From Pannonibacter carbonis (GTDB taxonomy: Bacteria; Pseudomonadota; Alphaproteobacteria; Rhizobiales; Stappiaceae), in contig NZ_PUDR01000004.1 of NCBI RefSeq assembly GCF_003012935.1, forward strand, positions 124,001-188,000: a DNA stretch of 64,000 bases, written 5' to 3'. The notes beneath the pieces were generated by a model. That model did no database searches. It was given only the letters and a program-made list of their open reading frames with translations, and had not been told where the DNA came from. The translations under genes and the position numbers were made by a program. Positions 26,147 through 35,368 of the stretch are shown here, piece after piece. The first letter of the stretch is position 1. Each line of letters starts with the position of its first letter.

Positions 26147-26695
26147 TCAGGTGTTACTTGATCCCAGAAAGTCCGCGCGCTCAAGGCGCAAGCGGACGGC
26201 CGGCACGGCGGCGCAGCGCGACAGGCTGCTGCAGTCCTCCGAACCGATGATAGCAAAGCCCGCCTTGCGCAACAGCGCCACCGAAGCGGGGTTTTCCTGC
26301 ATGACGGACGCTTCCACCGCCGCGACCTCGCGGGTGGCAAACAGCCAGCCGAGTGCGGCCAGCATTGCCTCGCCCATCAGTCCCTGTCCCCAATACGGGC
26401 GGCCAAGCCAATAGCCGATGACAGGTGTTTCATGCAATGCCCGGAAGGAAATCGCGCCCACAAGACCACCGTCATGGTCAATGGCGAAACCGATTTCCTC
26501 GATATCAGGCCAGCACGCCGCATTTGCCTCGGCGCTGCGCAGTTTTTCCAGCCCGTCCGCCCGGTCATAGGGGTGAGGCACGCGAGACAGCATCTTGGAG
26601 ACTTCATAGTCACCGAGATACTCGGCCACCCGGTCGATGTCGGCGGCGGCCAGCGGCCGCAGGGCGAGCCGCCGGCTGTCGATACGGATCGTCAT
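26147..26695 (-). CDS. GNAT N-acetyltransferase (RimJ/RimL type), first of three
   Basis: 182 residues. RimJ/RimL-like acetyltransferase: RLALRPLAAADIDRVAEYLGD at the N-terminus, PVIGYWLGRPYWGQGLMGEAM as the acetyl-CoA loop, and SVALLRKAGFAIIG near the C-terminus. Its start overlaps the stop of the next GNAT gene by four bases (ATGA). Acceptor substrate (ribosomal protein, small metabolite or antibiotic) cannot be read. It lies directly upstream of obgE. Confidence 0.9.
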   Translation of the reverse strand: MTIRIDSRRLALRPLAAADIDRVAEYLGDYEVSKMLSRVPHPYDRADGLEKLRSAEANAACWPDIEEIGFAIDHDGGLVGAISFRALHETPVIGYWLGRPYWGQGLMGEAMLAALGWLFATREVAAVEASVMQENPASVALLRKAGFAIIGSEDCSSLSRCAAVPAVRLRLERADFLGSSNT

Positions 26696-27258
26696 GCCGG
26701 CAGCCTCCGGTCCTCGAAGGACGCCCGGTCGAGGCGCACGACGATGTTGCGGACCTTGCGGTTCAGCGGCCGGGCAAAGCGCTCGGTCACCGCCGTCGGC
26801 AGGAAACCTAGCCGGCGAAGGACCGCGCGGGATGCTGCGTTTTCCTCATAGACCCGGGCCGCAACCGCTGCGCAACGGTGCGTCTCAAACGCCCATCCCA
26901 GTACCCGCTGTGCGGCTTCGGTCGTGTAGCCGAAGCCCTGAAATGGCCGGCCAAGCCAGTAGCCCAGCGTCGGACACTCCGCAGCTTCCGTGAGATCTCC
27001 GGGCGGATCGATCGCGATCAGACCGATGAACACGCCGCCCAGCGTGATGGCGAAGACCGCCGGGTCTTTCAGCGGATTGATCTTTTCCTGCCGGGCGATC
27101 AGTTGTTCCGCAGCCCCCTCCTCATAGGGCCAGGCAAAGCTGGTCATCCAGCGGGCAATCTCGAAGTCCTGACCGCCGAGGCGGGCAATCGCCTCGGCAT
27201 CACTGGCCTCCAGCGGCCGCAGGACAAGACGGCGCGAACGCAAAACGGGAAGCGTCAT
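26692..27258 (-). CDS. GNAT N-acetyltransferase (RimJ/RimL type), second of three
   Basis: 188 residues with the same layout as its neighbours: RRLVLRPLEASDAEAIARL at the start, PTLGYWLGRPFQGFGYTTEAA as the acetyl-CoA loop and ASRAVLRRLGFLPT. ATGA overlaps on both sides join it to the flanking GNAT genes. The three proteins look like products of old tandem duplication since they share architecture but differ widely in sequence. Substrate unknown. Confidence 0.9.
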   Translation of the reverse strand: MTLPVLRSRRLVLRPLEASDAEAIARLGGQDFEIARWMTSFAWPYEEGAAEQLIARQEKINPLKDPAVFAITLGGVFIGLIAIDPPGDLTEAAECPTLGYWLGRPFQGFGYTTEAAQRVLGWAFETHRCAAVAARVYEENAASRAVLRRLGFLPTAVTERFARPLNRKVRNIVVRLDRASFEDRRLPA

Positions 27259-27860
27259 GCCACCCTCCCCCAGTGCTTGAGCGCGCGCCAGACCGACCGC
27301 TCAAGCGCAAACCGTTCGATGGGAACCGAACCGCCGGCGCCGAGCGAGCGAGCCATGCTCTGGTCCCGGTACTGGAAGCCGCACTTCACCAGCACCCGCC
27401 GCGAGGCCGCGTTGGTGACCCGGCAGTCCGCCAGCAACTCACGCATCTCTCCCTGGGCAAACGCATGGTCGACGAGCATCTGCAGGGCTTCCGTCGCAAA
27501 GCCCTGGCCCCAGAAGGGCTCGCCCAGCCAGTAGCCGACCTGAACCGGACCGCCAGGCTCGAGCGCCGACCAGGTGGCCTGACCGATCAGCCGGCCGGTG
27601 GTGGCCATGCGGATGGCAAAGCTGGCATGGGTGGAATTGAGAACGGCGCTGCGCTGAACCATCCGCCGCGCGTCTTCCAGCGAGAACGGATGCGGCATGG
27701 TCGCCAGATGCGAGGCAATTTTTCGGTTGTTGGCGAGAAACACGATGTCTGCCAGATCGTCCGTTCGCGGCAGGTCGAGCCGCACGCGGACACCTTCCTG
27801 CGGCATCACGGCCGCACCGAGACAACTTTCGTCGAGATATCCTTCGCTTTCGAGAACCAT
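27255..27860 (-). CDS. GNAT N-acetyltransferase (RimJ/RimL type), third of three
   Basis: 201 residues; a roughly 20-residue extra N-terminus precedes the GNAT core (VRLDLPRTDDLADIVFLANN), with the acetyl-CoA loop QVGYWLGEPFWGQGFATEAL and ASRRVLVKCGFQYRDQ. It is the first gene of the GNAT-GNAT-GNAT-obgE-proBA run and is separated from rpmA by a strong terminator. Start is the ATG at 27858-27860; a later start just before the core is possible. Confidence 0.88.
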   Translation of the reverse strand: MVLESEGYLDESCLGAAVMPQEGVRVRLDLPRTDDLADIVFLANNRKIASHLATMPHPFSLEDARRMVQRSAVLNSTHASFAIRMATTGRLIGQATWSALEPGGPVQVGYWLGEPFWGQGFATEALQMLVDHAFAQGEMRELLADCRVTNAASRRVLVKCGFQYRDQSMARSLGAGGSVPIERFALERSVWRALKHWGRVA

Positions 27861-29272: not shown

Positions 29273-29362
<90 letters not shown>

Positions 29363-29437: not shown

Positions 29438-29677
29438 TCATTCTTTCTTCCTAGTTTTCCCAAACATCTGCGCGAGCAGCTCCTCGGAACGGCGAATGCC
29501 TTCAGGGGTGAGCGTGACGGACTTTGCGGTGTTGACCGGGTTCTCGATGAACCCTTGCTGATGCAAGCGGCTCAATGTGTCCCAGTCGAAGCTTTTCCAG
29601 GCACGATTGCCATCATGCAAGGTGAGGGACAACAGGCCAAGAACGGCCGCGTCTACCCTATCCTCGTCGAGTTCCAT
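29438..29677 (-). CDS. DUF6429-like small protein
   Basis: 79 residues, soluble: MELDEDRVDAAVLGLLSLTL then RAWKSFDWDTLSRLHQQGFI and SVTLTPEGIRRSEELLAQMF. The pattern (a winged-helix-like body with a basic tail) matches my recollection of the DUF6429 family, small proteins common in proteobacteria with no known function. The ATG at 29677 follows GGAG by a suitable distance; the longer start at 29704 lacks a Shine-Dalgarno. Isolated between tRNA-Ser and the CMAH-like gene. Confidence 0.7.
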   Translation of the reverse strand: MELDEDRVDAAVLGLLSLTLHDGNRAWKSFDWDTLSRLHQQGFIENPVNTAKSVTLTPEGIRRSEELLAQMFGKTRKKE

Positions 29678-30029
29678 GGCAGTTTCTCCATCTGTCCGGT
29701 CCATCCGGTACCACTATTCGTCAATCCCCGGCCTGACCTGAGTGCTGCGATGCAGAAGCATCACCAACTGCGGGTTCAACCGCAAAAGGCTGGTTGAAAC
29801 GCATGGCGACAGAGGCCTCAGCCTGCTGGCTTCCGCGAAAATTTAGCAAGTCCCGCACAACTTGACCGCATAGGAATTGCTGCTCACTTGAACGGCAGCA
29901 CCCGCAAGGCCCATACTGAATCCATGTCGGTGTTGCCCGGTCCGCGCGGTTTGCGTCCGGCCTTGCACACGAGCTGTAAAAAATCAGCTGCCGAGTTTGT
30001 TCACCCCTGTCCAAATGGGCTTCTGAACC
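29678..30029. other. Intergenic region upstream of the CMAH-like gene
   Basis: 352 bases without a supportable gene on either strand. It must hold the promoter of the CMAH-like gene and that of the small minus-strand gene. No repeat, tRNA or clear operator was seen. The start of the CMAH-like gene has only a weak Shine-Dalgarno. Confidence 0.4.
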
Positions 30030-31733
30030 ATGTCCGCCAGTCATCCCTTTGCCGCCTTCCGCCGGGAACCTGCTGACTTCCGTGACCATGTCACCGAACA
30101 TGACCTGGTGCCGGGCGAACTCGGCGAGGGCCTGACAAATCATGAAGACTGGTTTGTCTGGCGGAGCGGACATGAAGTCCGGATTTATGACCGGATCTGC
30201 GACCACAACGGCGGCCGGCTGATCTTCAACAACAACCGCATTTCCTGCCCGATGCACGGCTGGAACCTGGATCCGGCAAGCGGCCGCTACCTGAATGTCG
30301 ACTGTGCCAAAACTCCGGTGCTCGCCGCCAGAGTTGAGGACCCTCAGGCACCCTTGCGGTTCGAGCTGCGCAAACCGTCCCGGCAGCTGACGGGGTTTAC
30401 GCGGTCCATTCCGGTCGAGGTCGAGTTTCTCAACCACGCCTGCCTGCTGATCCGCGCACCGGGGATCTGTTTTGCCACCGATCCCTGGCTCCTTGGCCCG
30501 GCCTTTTGCAATGGCTGGTGGCTGAGCCTGCCCTCCCCGGTCGATGCCCTGGAGCGGATCAACGCCTGCGACTTCCTGTTCATCTCGCACAATCACCCGG
30601 ACCACCTGCACCGGGAGACGCTGGAACAGGTCAGGCGGGACATGCCGATCCTGACACCCGCGTTCAGTTCAGGGTCAACAGAACGCTATCTGCGCGATCT
30701 CGGCTTTGCCGATATCCGCACCGAAGGCTTCGATACCCGCCTTGTCGACGACGTCAATGAAGTGGCGCTCTCCATTCTCAAAAGCGGCGATTTCCGAGAT
30801 GACAGTGGCCTGTTGCTGGAGATTGGCGGCTTTTCAGCCCTGCTTGCCGTGGATGCGAATTTCATCGATTTTCACCGGTTTCCGGAGGCGGTCACGCTCT
30901 ATGCGTCGTCCTTTGCCAGCGGGGCCAGCGGCTTTCCGTTGTGTTTCGACAATTATAGCGACGAGGAAAAGCAGGGCATCGTCACGCGCAACCGGAACGT
31001 GGCCCGCTACAGCAACACGCAGATCCTGTCACGCATGCGCCCTCAGGCGTTCCTGCCCTATGCCGGTTTCTTCAGCGAGGCGGCCACGCGGGATGATTAC
31101 ATCCGGACAAACAACAGGAAGAACTCCGTTGCCAGCTACGCGGGGCCTTGCAGTGACAACGGCGTGGAGTTGCTCGACGTGACAAGCCGCAACAGGTTCC
31201 TGTTCGCGGGCAACATGCTCATCGAGCAGGGGAAGTTGGGCGTTGCCGAGATGCCGCCGGCTGATGTTGACACCTATCTGATGGCGGCTGCGGCCGACTA
31301 CAGCGACCTCAGCCCGGACGAGGTCGAAACCTATTTCATGGAATCGGACTTCCGGCGCGCCCTCAACCTGTGCGTCCGGCTCACGGACGATGACTTCGAG
31401 GCCGGAGACGAGGCCTATTATTGCCGCTTCGGGCCAGAAGGGCCGGAACACGTCAAGGCACTCGACCGGCAAGGCTATGAGGCCCTGCTGGAACAACTTG
31501 ACACCTATCTGTCGATCCGGATCCGCCGCGCCGAGTTTATCCGCGTGATCCGGCTCGGGTTGCCCTGGGAAGATCTGTCCATTGGCTTCCAATGCCGGGT
31601 CAAACGGCAGCCGAATGTCTATCATTCCGACTTCTGGTACCATTTCTCCAATGTCTATGTGAACGATCGGGTGCGCCGCGAGTCGCTGAACTGCGATGCC
31701 TGCCTGAGGCTGCAACACGAATTTGTGGTGTGA
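30030..31733 (+). CDS. CMP-N-acetylneuraminate hydroxylase (CMAH)-like Rieske/MBL-fold protein
   Basis: 567 residues, about the length of mammalian CMAH (577 in mouse, from memory). Domains: Rieske 2Fe-2S (about 20-115) with ligands Cys57-x-His59 and Cys73-x2-His76; metallo-beta-lactamase fold (about 130-400) with SHNHPDH at 186-192. Segments agree closely with my memory of CMAH: DPWLLGPAFCNGWWL, ASGFPLCF, FLPYAGFF and the C-terminal GLPWEDLSIGFQ, then YHSDFWYHF. CMAH hydroxylates CMP-Neu5Ac to CMP-Neu5Gc using cytochrome b5 electrons. No sialic acid genes are in the window, so the substrate may be a different sugar nucleotide. Likely co-transcribed with the methyltransferase four bases downstream. 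Confidence 0.85.
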   Translation: MSASHPFAAFRREPADFRDHVTEHDLVPGELGEGLTNHEDWFVWRSGHEVRIYDRICDHNGGRLIFNNNRISCPMHGWNLDPASGRYLNVDCAKTPVLAARVEDPQAPLRFELRKPSRQLTGFTRSIPVEVEFLNHACLLIRAPGICFATDPWLLGPAFCNGWWLSLPSPVDALERINACDFLFISHNHPDHLHRETLEQVRRDMPILTPAFSSGSTERYLRDLGFADIRTEGFDTRLVDDVNEVALSILKSGDFRDDSGLLLEIGGFSALLAVDANFIDFHRFPEAVTLYASSFASGASGFPLCFDNYSDEEKQGIVTRNRNVARYSNTQILSRMRPQAFLPYAGFFSEAATRDDYIRTNNRKNSVASYAGPCSDNGVELLDVTSRNRFLFAGNMLIEQGKLGVAEMPPADVDTYLMAAAADYSDLSPDEVETYFMESDFRRALNLCVRLTDDDFEAGDEAYYCRFGPEGPEHVKALDRQGYEALLEQLDTYLSIRIRRAEFIRVIRLGLPWEDLSIGFQCRVKRQPNVYHSDFWYHFSNVYVNDRVRRESLNCDACLRLQHEFVV

Positions 31734-31737
31734 GCGA

Positions 31738-32445
31738 ATGACCGATGATGCCAAGCAACTGGAATGGGACGATGCCTACCGCCGGGGCGACAACTTCCTG
31801 TTCTATCCCAATGAGGAGGTGCTGCGCTTCTTTGCCCGCCATGTTGCCAAGCGGACCGGTGTTTCCGAGGTGAGTTTTCGTGAGGGCTTCAGTTCCTCAA
31901 GCCGTGTGCTCGATTTCGGCTGCGGGATAGGGCGTCATGTGCGCTTCCTGCTTGACCTCGCGCTTGACGGCGTTGGCATCGACCTGTCGTCCGAAGCCAT
32001 AGCGGTCGGCCGGCGCTGGCTGGTCGAGGCCGGCTATGGCGATGCGGCGGGACGCCTGACGGTCGGAGACGGGCGCGATTTGCCCTATCCTGCTGCCTCC
32101 TTTGATGTTGCCGTGGCGCATGGCGTTCTTGATTCGATGCCTTTCGATATCGCGCTTGCCTGTGTTGCCGATCTGGCCCGGGTGATCCGGCCCGGCGGTC
32201 TGTTCTACCTTGACCTGATCAGCGGCGATGACAGTGACTGTGAACCCGGCTTTTCAGGCGAACTGATCGTGGACAAGGCACATGAGCGTGGCACGATTCA
32301 AAGTTACTTTGACGAGGCGAAGCTCTGCCGGTTGCTGGACGGACGCTTTGCAATACGTGAGCTTGTTTTCGTGCGTCGGGCCGTCCTGACGACCTCAAGC
32401 CATGGCAGCCGATACCACGTCATTGCCGAGCGCCTGCCCGACTGA
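31738..32445 (+). CDS. Class I SAM-dependent methyltransferase
   Basis: 235 residues. Motif I VLDFGCGIGRH at 57-67 (SAM-binding), acidic end of strand 2 near VGIDLSSEA, and post-motif LARVIRPGGLFYLDLISGDD typical of Methyltransf_11/25-like enzymes. The N-terminal WDDAYRRGDNFLFYPNEEVLRFF resembles small-molecule methyltransferases of natural-product and surface-sugar pathways. The ATG at 31738 follows the CMAH-like stop by four bases, so the two are one unit and may act on the same compound. Acceptor unknown. Confidence 0.85.
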   Translation: MTDDAKQLEWDDAYRRGDNFLFYPNEEVLRFFARHVAKRTGVSEVSFREGFSSSSRVLDFGCGIGRHVRFLLDLALDGVGIDLSSEAIAVGRRWLVEAGYGDAAGRLTVGDGRDLPYPAASFDVAVAHGVLDSMPFDIALACVADLARVIRPGGLFYLDLISGDDSDCEPGFSGELIVDKAHERGTIQSYFDEAKLCRLLDGRFAIRELVFVRRAVLTTSSHGSRYHVIAERLPD

Positions 32446-32454
32446 ATACTCGAA

Positions 32455-32488
32455 GACTGGCCTGAGGGACTGGCCTGAGGGACTGGCC
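32455..32488. repeat. 13-bp tandem repeat after the methyltransferase gene
   Basis: The unit GACTGGCCTGAGG occurs twice in full and once for eight bases, starting ten bases after the methyltransferase stop. It is a simple local duplication with no obvious function. Confidence 0.7.
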
Positions 32489-33118
32489 AGAAGGACAAAG
32501 GGCTCCAAACCCTGACCCGCTTTGCTGGTCATGCCAGACTGCATCATGCGCTGGCGTCAACCTCCACATGTTTCATGTACACCCTCGCAAAATGCGCAGG
32601 TTATTGCGGAGCAAGGCAAGCAGCGGCGATTGAGCCACGTAAGCACTGCACGCAAGGTCAGCGGTTGTGACCGAAACATCTGCCTGCAAACACATCCGAA
32701 AATCCTGCCTCGATGACGAGGCAGTCCGCAGAACTTGTCCGTCTAAGCATTCTCGCTAGGGTCCGCGCTTCCGGTTACCTGCGCAACCGGCGGGCGCTGT
32801 CATTTCAGCCAAGGGCTCGGCTCGGCATTATTCCCTATGCTTTGAAAAACTCACCATACGGCAGTCTTAACTTTTTTGCATCGCATCATTGGGGTCTGAT
32901 TAAGAATTCAGAAACCATAATGATCATCGGATAATCATATTAAACTAGGATAACATACTTCAATTTACATAGACAATTTCTGCCTAGGCGAAATTTTCCT
33001 AGAGTTCCTTTTACTTTAACAGATCGATAACCTCGTTTATTGGATTCATTTTTACGTTTTGCGGCAAGTCTGCGTTAACGCTCAAGCCTTTCGGGCGGTA
33101 TTGCGAAAGTTCCGCATC
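32489..33118. promoter_or_regulatory. AT-rich upstream region of the cellulose operon
   Basis: About 630 bases without a supportable gene. The distal part contains an inverted repeat CCGGTT/AACCGG near 32772-32791; from about 32820 to 33060 the sequence is strongly AT-rich, as expected for a promoter region in this GC-rich genome. No c-di-GMP riboswitch pattern was recognised. It must carry the promoter of bcsA. Confidence 0.5.
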
Positions 33119-35368
33119 ATGGATTTGTTCAAACGTTTGATCCCCTGGCTCCTGTCAGCTGGACTGGTCGCTTTTCTGGTCACGCTGCCGCTGGGAACCC
33201 AGTCCCAACTGGTGCTGGGTCTCGTGCTCATTGCAGCGTTGCTGGCGGTCTGGCGGGTCTGGCGCGGTGCGAACCAGCGCATGATGATGATGTCGATCGG
33301 CACGCTGCTGGTGTTGCGTTACCTGTACTGGCGCGCGACCAGCACGCTGCCATCAATGAGCGACATGGCGGATTTCATTCCGGGTATGATCCTGTTCGCC
33401 GCCGAGCTGTTCTGCATCGGCATGTTGTTCATCAGCTTGTTCGTCGTGGCCAGCCCGCTGGAGCGGGCACCGGCTCGGCGCCTTTCTGATGAGGAGTTGC
33501 CGACCGTCGACGTGTTCATTCCGACCTACAACGAGGATGTCCATCTCCTGTCGGCGACGCTGGCGGCAGCGCGGGCGCTCGACTATCCGGCCGACAAGCT
33601 GAAGGTCTATCTGCTGGATGACGGCGGCACGGACCAGAAATGCACCCAGGATAACGTGATCGAGGCGGCAGCGGCCCGTCGGCGGCGGGCCGAGCTGATG
33701 TCCCTGTGCGCCGACCTTGGCGCGACCTATCTCACCCGGCAGAAAAACCTGTCCGCCAAGGCCGGCAACCTCAACAACGGCCTCGCCCATTCGACGGGTG
33801 AACTGGTGGTCGTGTTCGATGCCGACCATGCCCCGGTGCAGGAGTTCCTGCGTGAGACCGTTGGCCATTTCCGCGAGGATCCACGCCTTTTTCTGGTCCA
33901 GACGCCGCATTTCTTCCTCAACCCGGATCCTGTCGAGAAGAACCTGTCGACCTGGTTGCGAATGCCATCCGAGAACGAGATGTTCTACTCAGTCATCCAG
34001 CGCGGCCTGGACCGCTGGAACGCTGCGTTCTTCTGCGGCTCCGCGGCTGTCCTGCGCCGGGCGGCTCTGGTGGAGGCCGGCGGTTTCTCCGGTGTTTCCA
34101 TTACCGAAGATTGCGAGACGGCGCTTGAGCTGCATTCGCGCGGCTGGAACAGCCGTTATGTCGACCGGCCGATGATTGCCGGACTGCAACCTGAGACCTT
34201 CGCCTCGTTCATCGGCCAGCGCTCGCGCTGGTGCCGGGGCATGATGCAGATCCTGCTGCTGAAAACCCCCCTGCTGAAGCGCGGGCTCAGCCTGCCGCAG
34301 CGCGTCTGCTACCTGTCCTCGGCGCTGTTCTGGGCCTTCCCCTTCCCGCGCCTGACCTTCCTCGTGGCCCCGCTCCTGTTCATCTTCTTCGACCTGAAGA
34401 TCTTCATCGCCAATGGCCAGGAATTTGTCGCCTATGCGGTGACCTACCTGATCGCCAACATGATCCTGCAAAATTATCTGTACGGACGGGTGCGCTGGCC
34501 CTGGGTGTCAGAACTCTACGAGTACATCCAGTCGTTCTATCTGGCGCCTGCCATGTTGTCGGTATTGCTCAATCCGAAGAAGCCGAGCTTCAACGTGACG
34601 GAAAAGGGCGTGACCACGAACCGGGACTTCCTGTCGTCGCTCGCCACGCCCTATTTTGTCAGCTTTGCGGTGCTTGTGATCGCCATGGCCTTTGCGGGAT
34701 GGCGCTATGCAACGCAGACGCTCGACAATGATCTGCTGGTCGTGGTCTGCATCTGGAACGCCATCAATCTCGCCCTTGCGGCGGTCTCGCTGGGCGTTGT
34801 CTCCGAACGGTCCGAGCGGCGGCGCAACCAGCGCCTTGCCGTCCACAGGACAGGACGGCTGGACCTGCCCGGCGGCAGTCTGGCGGTGCATATCCAGGAT
34901 GCCTCGACGACGGGCGCGCGGGTCAAGCTGCTGACGCCGGGGGTTGATCTTCCGGCCGGCGAGGGCCTTCTGGTCGGCCGGCTGCATGTGGAGACGCTGG
35001 ATGGCCAGAGCGTGACAGGCGGCATCCCCGTCGCCGTCCGCCGCACCATTGCCGAACCGGACAGCCTCGCGGTCGGCCTGCAGTACCTGAAGCCGGCGCC
35101 GCATCACTACACCATCATCGCCGAGCTGATGTATGGCCAGGGCAAGCCCCTATCGGATTTCTGGAACCTGCGCCGTGCCGGCAAAGGCGTCCTGCGCGGC
35201 ACCTTGATGTTCCTGCGCATGTCGCTGGGCCAGACAATCCGCGGACTGCAGTTCGGATGGCTGGCAATGAACCGCACCGAAACGGCGGCAGCTGAACCGC
35301 CTGCGTCGCCGCCGCGCGGTGCCGAAGGCGGGGGCAAGGTTGCCGCATTCAAGACGGTGGAGGGATAA
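33119..35368 (+). CDS. bcsA: Cellulose synthase catalytic subunit (UDP-forming) with PilZ domain
   Basis: 749 residues. N-terminal membrane helices, GT2 domain with the catalytic series LLDDGG (about 165), VFDADHAP (about 235), ITEDCETAL (about 330) and the QxxRW motif QRSRWCRG (about 368), more membrane helices, then PilZ with RRNQR (about 569) and DASTTG (about 595). The PilZ motifs bind c-di-GMP and relieve autoinhibition. BcsA polymerises glucose from UDP-glucose and pushes the beta-1,4-glucan through the inner membrane. The ATG at 33119 is chosen since the family starts there. bcsB follows immediately. Confidence 0.97.
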   Translation: MDLFKRLIPWLLSAGLVAFLVTLPLGTQSQLVLGLVLIAALLAVWRVWRGANQRMMMMSIGTLLVLRYLYWRATSTLPSMSDMADFIPGMILFAAELFCIGMLFISLFVVASPLERAPARRLSDEELPTVDVFIPTYNEDVHLLSATLAAARALDYPADKLKVYLLDDGGTDQKCTQDNVIEAAAARRRRAELMSLCADLGATYLTRQKNLSAKAGNLNNGLAHSTGELVVVFDADHAPVQEFLRETVGHFREDPRLFLVQTPHFFLNPDPVEKNLSTWLRMPSENEMFYSVIQRGLDRWNAAFFCGSAAVLRRAALVEAGGFSGVSITEDCETALELHSRGWNSRYVDRPMIAGLQPETFASFIGQRSRWCRGMMQILLLKTPLLKRGLSLPQRVCYLSSALFWAFPFPRLTFLVAPLLFIFFDLKIFIANGQEFVAYAVTYLIANMILQNYLYGRVRWPWVSELYEYIQSFYLAPAMLSVLLNPKKPSFNVTEKGVTTNRDFLSSLATPYFVSFAVLVIAMAFAGWRYATQTLDNDLLVVVCIWNAINLALAAVSLGVVSERSERRRNQRLAVHRTGRLDLPGGSLAVHIQDASTTGARVKLLTPGVDLPAGEGLLVGRLHVETLDGQSVTGGIPVAVRRTIAEPDSLAVGLQYLKPAPHHYTIIAELMYGQGKPLSDFWNLRRAGKGVLRGTLMFLRMSLGQTIRGLQFGWLAMNRTETAAAEPPASPPRGAEGGGKVAAFKTVEG

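Follow-up and report, generated by a model that had tools for sequence, protein, structure and literature searches.

Hydroxylation of an N-acetyl group to an N-glycolyl group by proteins that combine a Rieske domain with a metallo-beta-lactamase (MBL) domain has two precedents, namely CMAH (PMC8227644) and the mycobacterial N-acetylmuramic acid hydroxylase NamH (PMC10050696). In CMAH, the Rieske domain precedes the beta-lactamase-like domain (PMC8227644), and the animal enzyme uses a CMP sugar as its substrate (PMC6481270). NamH has the opposite order, with an N-terminal UlaG domain and a C-terminal Rieske domain, and its substrate is peptidoglycan (PMC10050696). A further MBL protein of relevance here, CmlA, is an enzyme of chloramphenicol biosynthesis (PMC7785958). 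The presence of the CMAH family in bacteria is already reported and is not new: a passage of the review PMC8227644 refers to Peri et al. 2018 for the occurrence of CMAH genes in bacteria and algae. Nevertheless, according to reviews from 2019, Neu5Gc synthesis is not known from any microbe (PMC6524697, PMC6481270).

We analysed a 64,000-nucleotide stretch of Pannonibacter carbonis DNA, referred to below as the window, in which a gene for a CMAH-like protein is followed directly by a methyltransferase gene. The features are as follows.

29273..29362, + strand: tRNA-Ser(CGA), upstream context (ARAGORN, Rfam)
30030..31733, + strand: putative CMAH-family Rieske/MBL monooxygenase, 567 aa (ORF; Pfam Rieske and Lactamase_B_3; AlphaFold2 model)
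30099..30311, + strand: Rieske [2Fe-2S] domain, residues 24-94, ligands C57, H59, C73 and H76 (Pfam; ligand conservation)
30405..31229, + strand: MBL-fold catalytic domain, approximately residues 126-400 (VIA-align, Foldseek, motif invariance)
30585-30605, + strand: SHNHPDH motif, residues 186-192 of the CMAH-family protein (invariant, 32/32)
31738..32445, + strand: SAM-dependent methyltransferase, 235 aa, beginning 4 bases past the CMAH stop (ORF, junction sequence, Methyltransf_11/25)
33059..35368, + strand: bcsA cellulose synthase, downstream context (TIGR03030, 849 bits)

Domains and fold of the oxygenase

The 567-residue protein contains a Rieske domain at residues 24-94 (38 bits versus a Pfam cut-off of 20.3) followed by a Lactamase_B_3 match at residues 130-217 (28.9 versus 24), which is the domain order of CMAH. 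A preliminary description of this DNA had read the 567-residue frame as a bacterial CMAH relative with Rieske ligands C57, H59, C73 and H76 and an MBL metal motif, SHNHPDH. The reading frame and its conservation bear this out. The Rieske ligands are kept in all homologues that cover them (31/31 for C57 and H59, 32/32 for C73 and H76), and H187, H189, D191 and H192 of the motif are invariant in 32/32 homologues, as are the MBL residues D254, D258 and D275. The blocks singled out in the same description, DPWLLGPAFCNGWWL, ASGFPLCF and YHSDFWYHF, are present and lie within the conserved core of the family. No NCBIfam model names the 567-aa oxygenase.

An AlphaFold2 model of the oxygenase based on 32 homologues has a mean pLDDT of 90.2 and a pTM of 0.87; it replaces an earlier model from 6 sequences with a mediocre pLDDT of 76. 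A Foldseek search with the model gave FrsH and CmlA, both MBL-fold diiron hydroxylases, as the top solved matches. When the MBL domain was aligned using VIA-align, we observed a Z score of 20.1 for CmlA (234 residues, rmsd 3.8) and of 19.0 for FrsH (239 residues, rmsd 4.2). Several other MBL hydrolases tie with CmlA and FrsH in VIA-align, and thus the diiron reading draws on sequence ranking and family precedent rather than on the fold by itself. The best solved relatives by sequence are likewise CmlA (E 2.9e-9) and FrsH, for the MBL part only, and CmlA matches the oxygenase family profile (E 1.9e-10) at positions 132-284 only. The window oxygenase therefore shares a CmlA-type MBL domain with these enzymes. 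The profile match does not extend to the N-terminal region of CmlA, and the window protein has its Rieske domain there. Comparison with solved structures and family profiles, which had been suggested as a check, thus returned an N-terminal Rieske domain and an MBL domain of the diiron-oxygenase kind, and neither the family searches nor the AlphaFold model spoke against a CMAH relative.

The window protein is nearly equal in length to the CMAH of deuterostomes (567 aa versus 578 aa for the dog enzyme; PMC6842231). An unverified vertebrate CMAH sequence, which provides a lead rather than a test, aligns with it over nearly the whole length (28% over 550 aa) and scores 334 bits against the bacterial family profile. 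The window enzyme differs from deuterostome CMAH in that it is bacterial, is paired with a methyltransferase, and belongs to a family linked to NeuABC and Leg clusters. We consider the protein to be best described as a putative bacterial CMAH-family hydroxylase of a CMP-activated nonulosonic acid (CMP-NulO).

Genomic setting and nonulosonic acid genes

In the window's genome, the CMAH-methyltransferase pair lies between the tRNA-Ser gene and the cellulose operon. Homology to the CMAH-less congeners G009 and G010 resumes only at ~32845 (blastn), indicating that the pair sits at a synteny break. GC content drops to ~48-50% at 32440-32850, where homology to these congeners ends shortly before the cellulose synthase operon. 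The small ORF at 29438-29704 has no match in the congeners. A link between the pair and the cellulose operon was considered and dropped, since bcsA is kept in congeners that lack the pair. Elsewhere in the window, three consecutive short GNAT-like acetyltransferase ORFs (26147-27860, - strand) lie next to obg and proB.

It had been stated that the window holds no sialic acid gene, which is true, yet neuA, neuB and neuC are present on another contig of the same genome. They form a TPR protein-neuA-neuB-neuC locus on contig C23, without the pair. An equivalent locus is found in P. indicus DSM 23407 (G007), and here the methyltransferase-CMAH pair is located within it, between neuC and a TylF-like gene. 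The CMAH proteins of the two genomes are 64% identical, and these are the only carriers of a CMAH-family gene among 87 genomes of the bacterial family (2/87). Three congeners have the neu locus and no CMAH. The TylF-like gene ending the neuABC locus (L027:8779-9459, L008:17741-18436) encodes a homologue of macrocin O-methyltransferase and is a second candidate sugar methyltransferase; it is also present in two congeners without CMAH. The ferredoxin-NADP reductase Fpr, encoded near several of the loci, was considered as an electron donor and dropped, since it flanks the neu locus in CMAH-less congeners too.

The NeuC protein of this genome scores 333 bits versus a cut-off of 236 (TIGR03568). 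Its single NeuB scores 350 bits for NeuB_NnaB (TIGR03569), below the cut-off of 400, and 236 for PseI, and its NeuA has no equivalog model above cut-off. An aminotransferase of the LegC/PseC type is needed by both the Leg and the Pse pathways. We found none in this genome (best score 26 bits versus a cut-off of 420), and because the LegC and PseC models cross-match, PseC-like proteins should have been caught as well. With one NeuB and no LegC/PseC-type aminotransferase, the genome is expected to produce Neu5Ac but not Leg or Pse. The only NulO pathway predicted from its gene content is thus of the Neu5Ac type, and the likely substrate of the oxygenase in this genome narrows to CMP-Neu5Ac.

A genome-wide scan revealed 31 CMAH loci, distributed among Alphaproteobacteria (including Bradyrhizobium and Pelagibacterales), Gammaproteobacteria, Bacteroidota (Chitinophaga, Pontibacter, Flavicella), Helicobacter, one Prochlorococcus and others. 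In the CMAH tree, the window protein groups with that of P. indicus, and a cyanobacterium and a gammaproteobacterium fall among the Alphaproteobacteria, as horizontal transfer would give. A search of plasmids for CMAH produced partial MBL hits only; the surroundings of one of these, which include pabB and chorismate genes, are CmlA-like. A search of phages produced no hit.

NeuB is present in 28/33 CMAH genomes versus 135/289 genomes of the class sample (Fisher 1.3e-5), although the enrichment is weak within the alphaproteobacterial CMAH genomes (13/18, p 0.027). Five of the 33 have no NeuB, several of these being small partial genomes. A NeuB gene lies within ~13 kb of ~10/34 CMAH genes, compared with a few percent at most expected under an assumed chance rate. 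NeuB, NeuC and NeuA are all encoded within ~10 kb of CMAH in Pontibacter, Lacimicrobium and three gammaproteobacteria, and the Lacimicrobium locus is beside a flagellin-like gene. In two other genomes (G311 and G397), a complete Leg-type operon, whose LegC exceeds its cut-off, precedes the CMAH gene. The recommended search beyond the window for neuABC or Leg genes was therefore positive: the genome itself has neuABC, P. indicus has it next to the pair, and other genera have Leg clusters adjoining CMAH. For many CMAH homologues (Pelagibacterales, Helicobacter, Flavicella), the neighbourhood contains no NulO gene. In each of Helicobacter cynogastricus, H. cetorum and H. baculiformis (L068, L074, L076), the single CMAH homologue does not adjoin any NulO gene, and the genome has two NeuB genes at other locations. 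The homologues of Pelagibacteraceae and of one Prochlorococcus single-cell genome (L051, L053, L056, L058, L060, L067) mostly lack nearby NulO genes. One Pelagibacterales homologue (L072:3564-5292) is split across two frames, by sequencing error or decay.

The methyltransferase partner

The methyltransferase that had been noticed beside CMAH is confirmed by a Methyltransf_11 match of 58.7 bits versus 21.2 (Pfam); it is a class I SAM methyltransferase, and its gene is separated from CMAH by 4 bases. The ATG at 31738 is a likelier start than the TTG at 31723. The protein is 62% identical to the partner methyltransferase of P. indicus. Among solved structures it is matched best by generic SAM methyltransferases. 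The subfamily to which it belongs is narrow, is marked by a conserved FYP-E motif near the N-terminus and an HE-GT-QS block, and occurs in 3/385 genomes of the class sample. Including the window's own genome, 8/34 CMAH genomes carry this methyltransferase (7/33 without it), and in all 8 it adjoins CMAH, flanking it on one side or the other and in either orientation. The adjacency is seen in both Alphaproteobacteria and Bacteroidota, and presence of the methyltransferase changes at least 5 times on the CMAH tree, suggesting that the association has been kept or rebuilt repeatedly. The suggested survey of whether the pair is conserved thus found the two genes adjacent in two phyla, with the methyltransferase as an optional partner. 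In the literature covered by our search, with most subscription papers and Peri et al. 2018 lying outside it, we found no description of the neuABC linkage or the methyltransferase pairing of bacterial CMAH.

The third genome of the class sample with the methyltransferase, G207, gave no CMAH hit. There the gene is part of a set encoding ACP, FkbH, epimerase-like and acyltransferase-like proteins beside a legionaminic-type operon (L080:4116-8336), and it overlaps the end of the acyltransferase-like gene. The FkbH protein scores 280 bits versus a cut-off of 147; the acyltransferase-like and ACP proteins matched no family model and are labelled by eye. FkbH proteins load glyceryl-type groups onto carrier proteins. 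A swap between CMAH and FkbH/ACP as the hydroxyacyl source would be expected if the methyltransferase methylates that hydroxyl, and we infer that it probably O-methylates the hydroxyl that CMAH introduces on the glycolyl group. Methylated hydroxyacyl groups occur on other nonulosonic acids: passages of PMC7099621 and PMC3958885 describe di-O-methylglyceryl pseudaminic acid on the flagellin of C. jejuni.

Proposed pathway and its alternatives

Given these genes, we infer a substrate, a methylation site and an acceptor. We assign a probability of roughly 0.6 to a pathway in which the bacterial CMAH would convert CMP-Neu5Ac to CMP-Neu5Gc, the methyltransferase would probably O-methylate the new glycolyl hydroxyl, and a TPR protein would possibly transfer the sugar. 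Electrons would enter at the N-terminal Rieske cluster, and the metal centre of the MBL domain, most likely diiron, would activate O2 and hydroxylate the N-acetyl methyl of a CMP-activated nonulosonic acid. Since Neu5Ac is the only CMP-NulO predicted by gene content (neuA-neuB-neuC on the other contig), conversion of CMP-Neu5Ac to CMP-Neu5Gc would be the most likely reaction in this genome. The adjacent methyltransferase would probably act next, and the TPR protein encoded beside neuA may attach the sugar to a surface protein such as flagellin. The pair is distant from the neu locus in this genome, so that their co-regulation can only be presumed.

The TPR protein (L027:12416-14278) has an unassigned C-terminal half and an FlmG-like architecture, making it a possible sialyl/flagellin transferase. 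It has 620 aa with N-terminal TPR repeats, compared with 596 aa for FlmG, the flagellin O-glycosyltransferase of Caulobacter (PMC7591256), and Pfam called no glycosyltransferase domain in it. FlmG works with pseudaminic acid, and for the TPR protein transfer is a proposed step. The NulOs of Campylobacter, N-methylacetimidoyl Leg and di-O-methylglyceryl Pse, likewise carry tailored, methylated substituents on flagellin, according to passages of PMC3958885 and PMC7099621; these variants come from other enzymes, and the same passages mention no CMAH homologue.

Several alternatives concern what the oxygenase does. It might hydroxylate another NulO, at an N-acyl group of legionaminic acid, or work at another step, on a precursor such as UDP-GlcNAc or ManNAc before NeuB. 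The Leg-type clusters that hold the CMAH family in G311 and G397 suggest a family substrate range wider than Neu5Ac, and NeuB of the window's genome falls under its equivalog cut-off. However, this genome, without a LegC/PseC-type aminotransferase, should make neither Leg nor Pse, its NeuC is above cut-off, and animal CMAH works on a CMP sugar (PMC6481270), so that we regard such a substrate as unlikely. The location of the pair away from neuABC at a synteny break, and the neuABC loci of three congeners without CMAH, would also fit a relic: the pair, acquired or displaced, would be intact but would have ceased to function together with the strain's neu locus. This is quite improbable given that both reading frames are intact with every ligand kept and that both genes occur together in P. 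indicus at 62-64% identity. A still fainter prospect is a NamH-like hydroxylase making N-glycolylmuramic acid for peptidoglycan. NamH too joins an MBL (UlaG) domain to a Rieske domain and turns N-acetyl into N-glycolyl (PMC10050696), but the order of these domains, by which alone we compared the two proteins, is reversed in the window protein, the pair of P. indicus adjoins neuABC rather than peptidoglycan genes, and a gene found in so few genomes of the bacterial family is unlike a cell-wall housekeeping gene.

The methyltransferase, for its part, might act elsewhere than on the CMAH-made hydroxyl, for example on O-8 or another hydroxyl of the ring or chain, or on the carboxylate. Its fold does not give the methylation site, methylated NulO substituents of several kinds exist, and G207 carries the methyltransferase without CMAH. 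We consider this less probable, if a serious contender, because the methyltransferase always adjoins CMAH in those CMAH genomes that have it, because the FkbH/ACP set of G207 would provide another hydroxyacyl group there, and because the methyltransferase is found at Neu-type as well as Leg-type loci, whose sugars have few hydroxyls in common.

Methylation of the glycolyl hydroxyl, our preferred reading, can be extended to an all-bacterial route from UDP-GlcNAc to CMP-Neu5Gc by NeuC, NeuB, NeuA and CMAH, followed by a methyl cap that would yield N-(O-methylglycolyl) sialic acid on a surface protein. The wider family would then glycolylate sugars of the Neu and Leg types alike, and one methyltransferase would draw on CMAH or FkbH/ACP interchangeably as its hydroxyacyl source. 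This full scheme is tentative, and we give it somewhat less than even odds.

If the conversion to CMP-Neu5Gc is true, microbes may make Neu5Gc-type sugars, contrary to the literature. The belief that no microbe makes Neu5Gc underlies the open question of the origin of human anti-Neu5Gc antibodies. With its CMAH gene inside a neuABC locus, P. indicus DSM 23407 opens bacterial Neu5Gc synthesis, a question treated by the field as closed, to direct testing. Retention of the methyltransferase pairing in two phyla points, in addition, to a sialic acid variant for which apparently nobody has looked.
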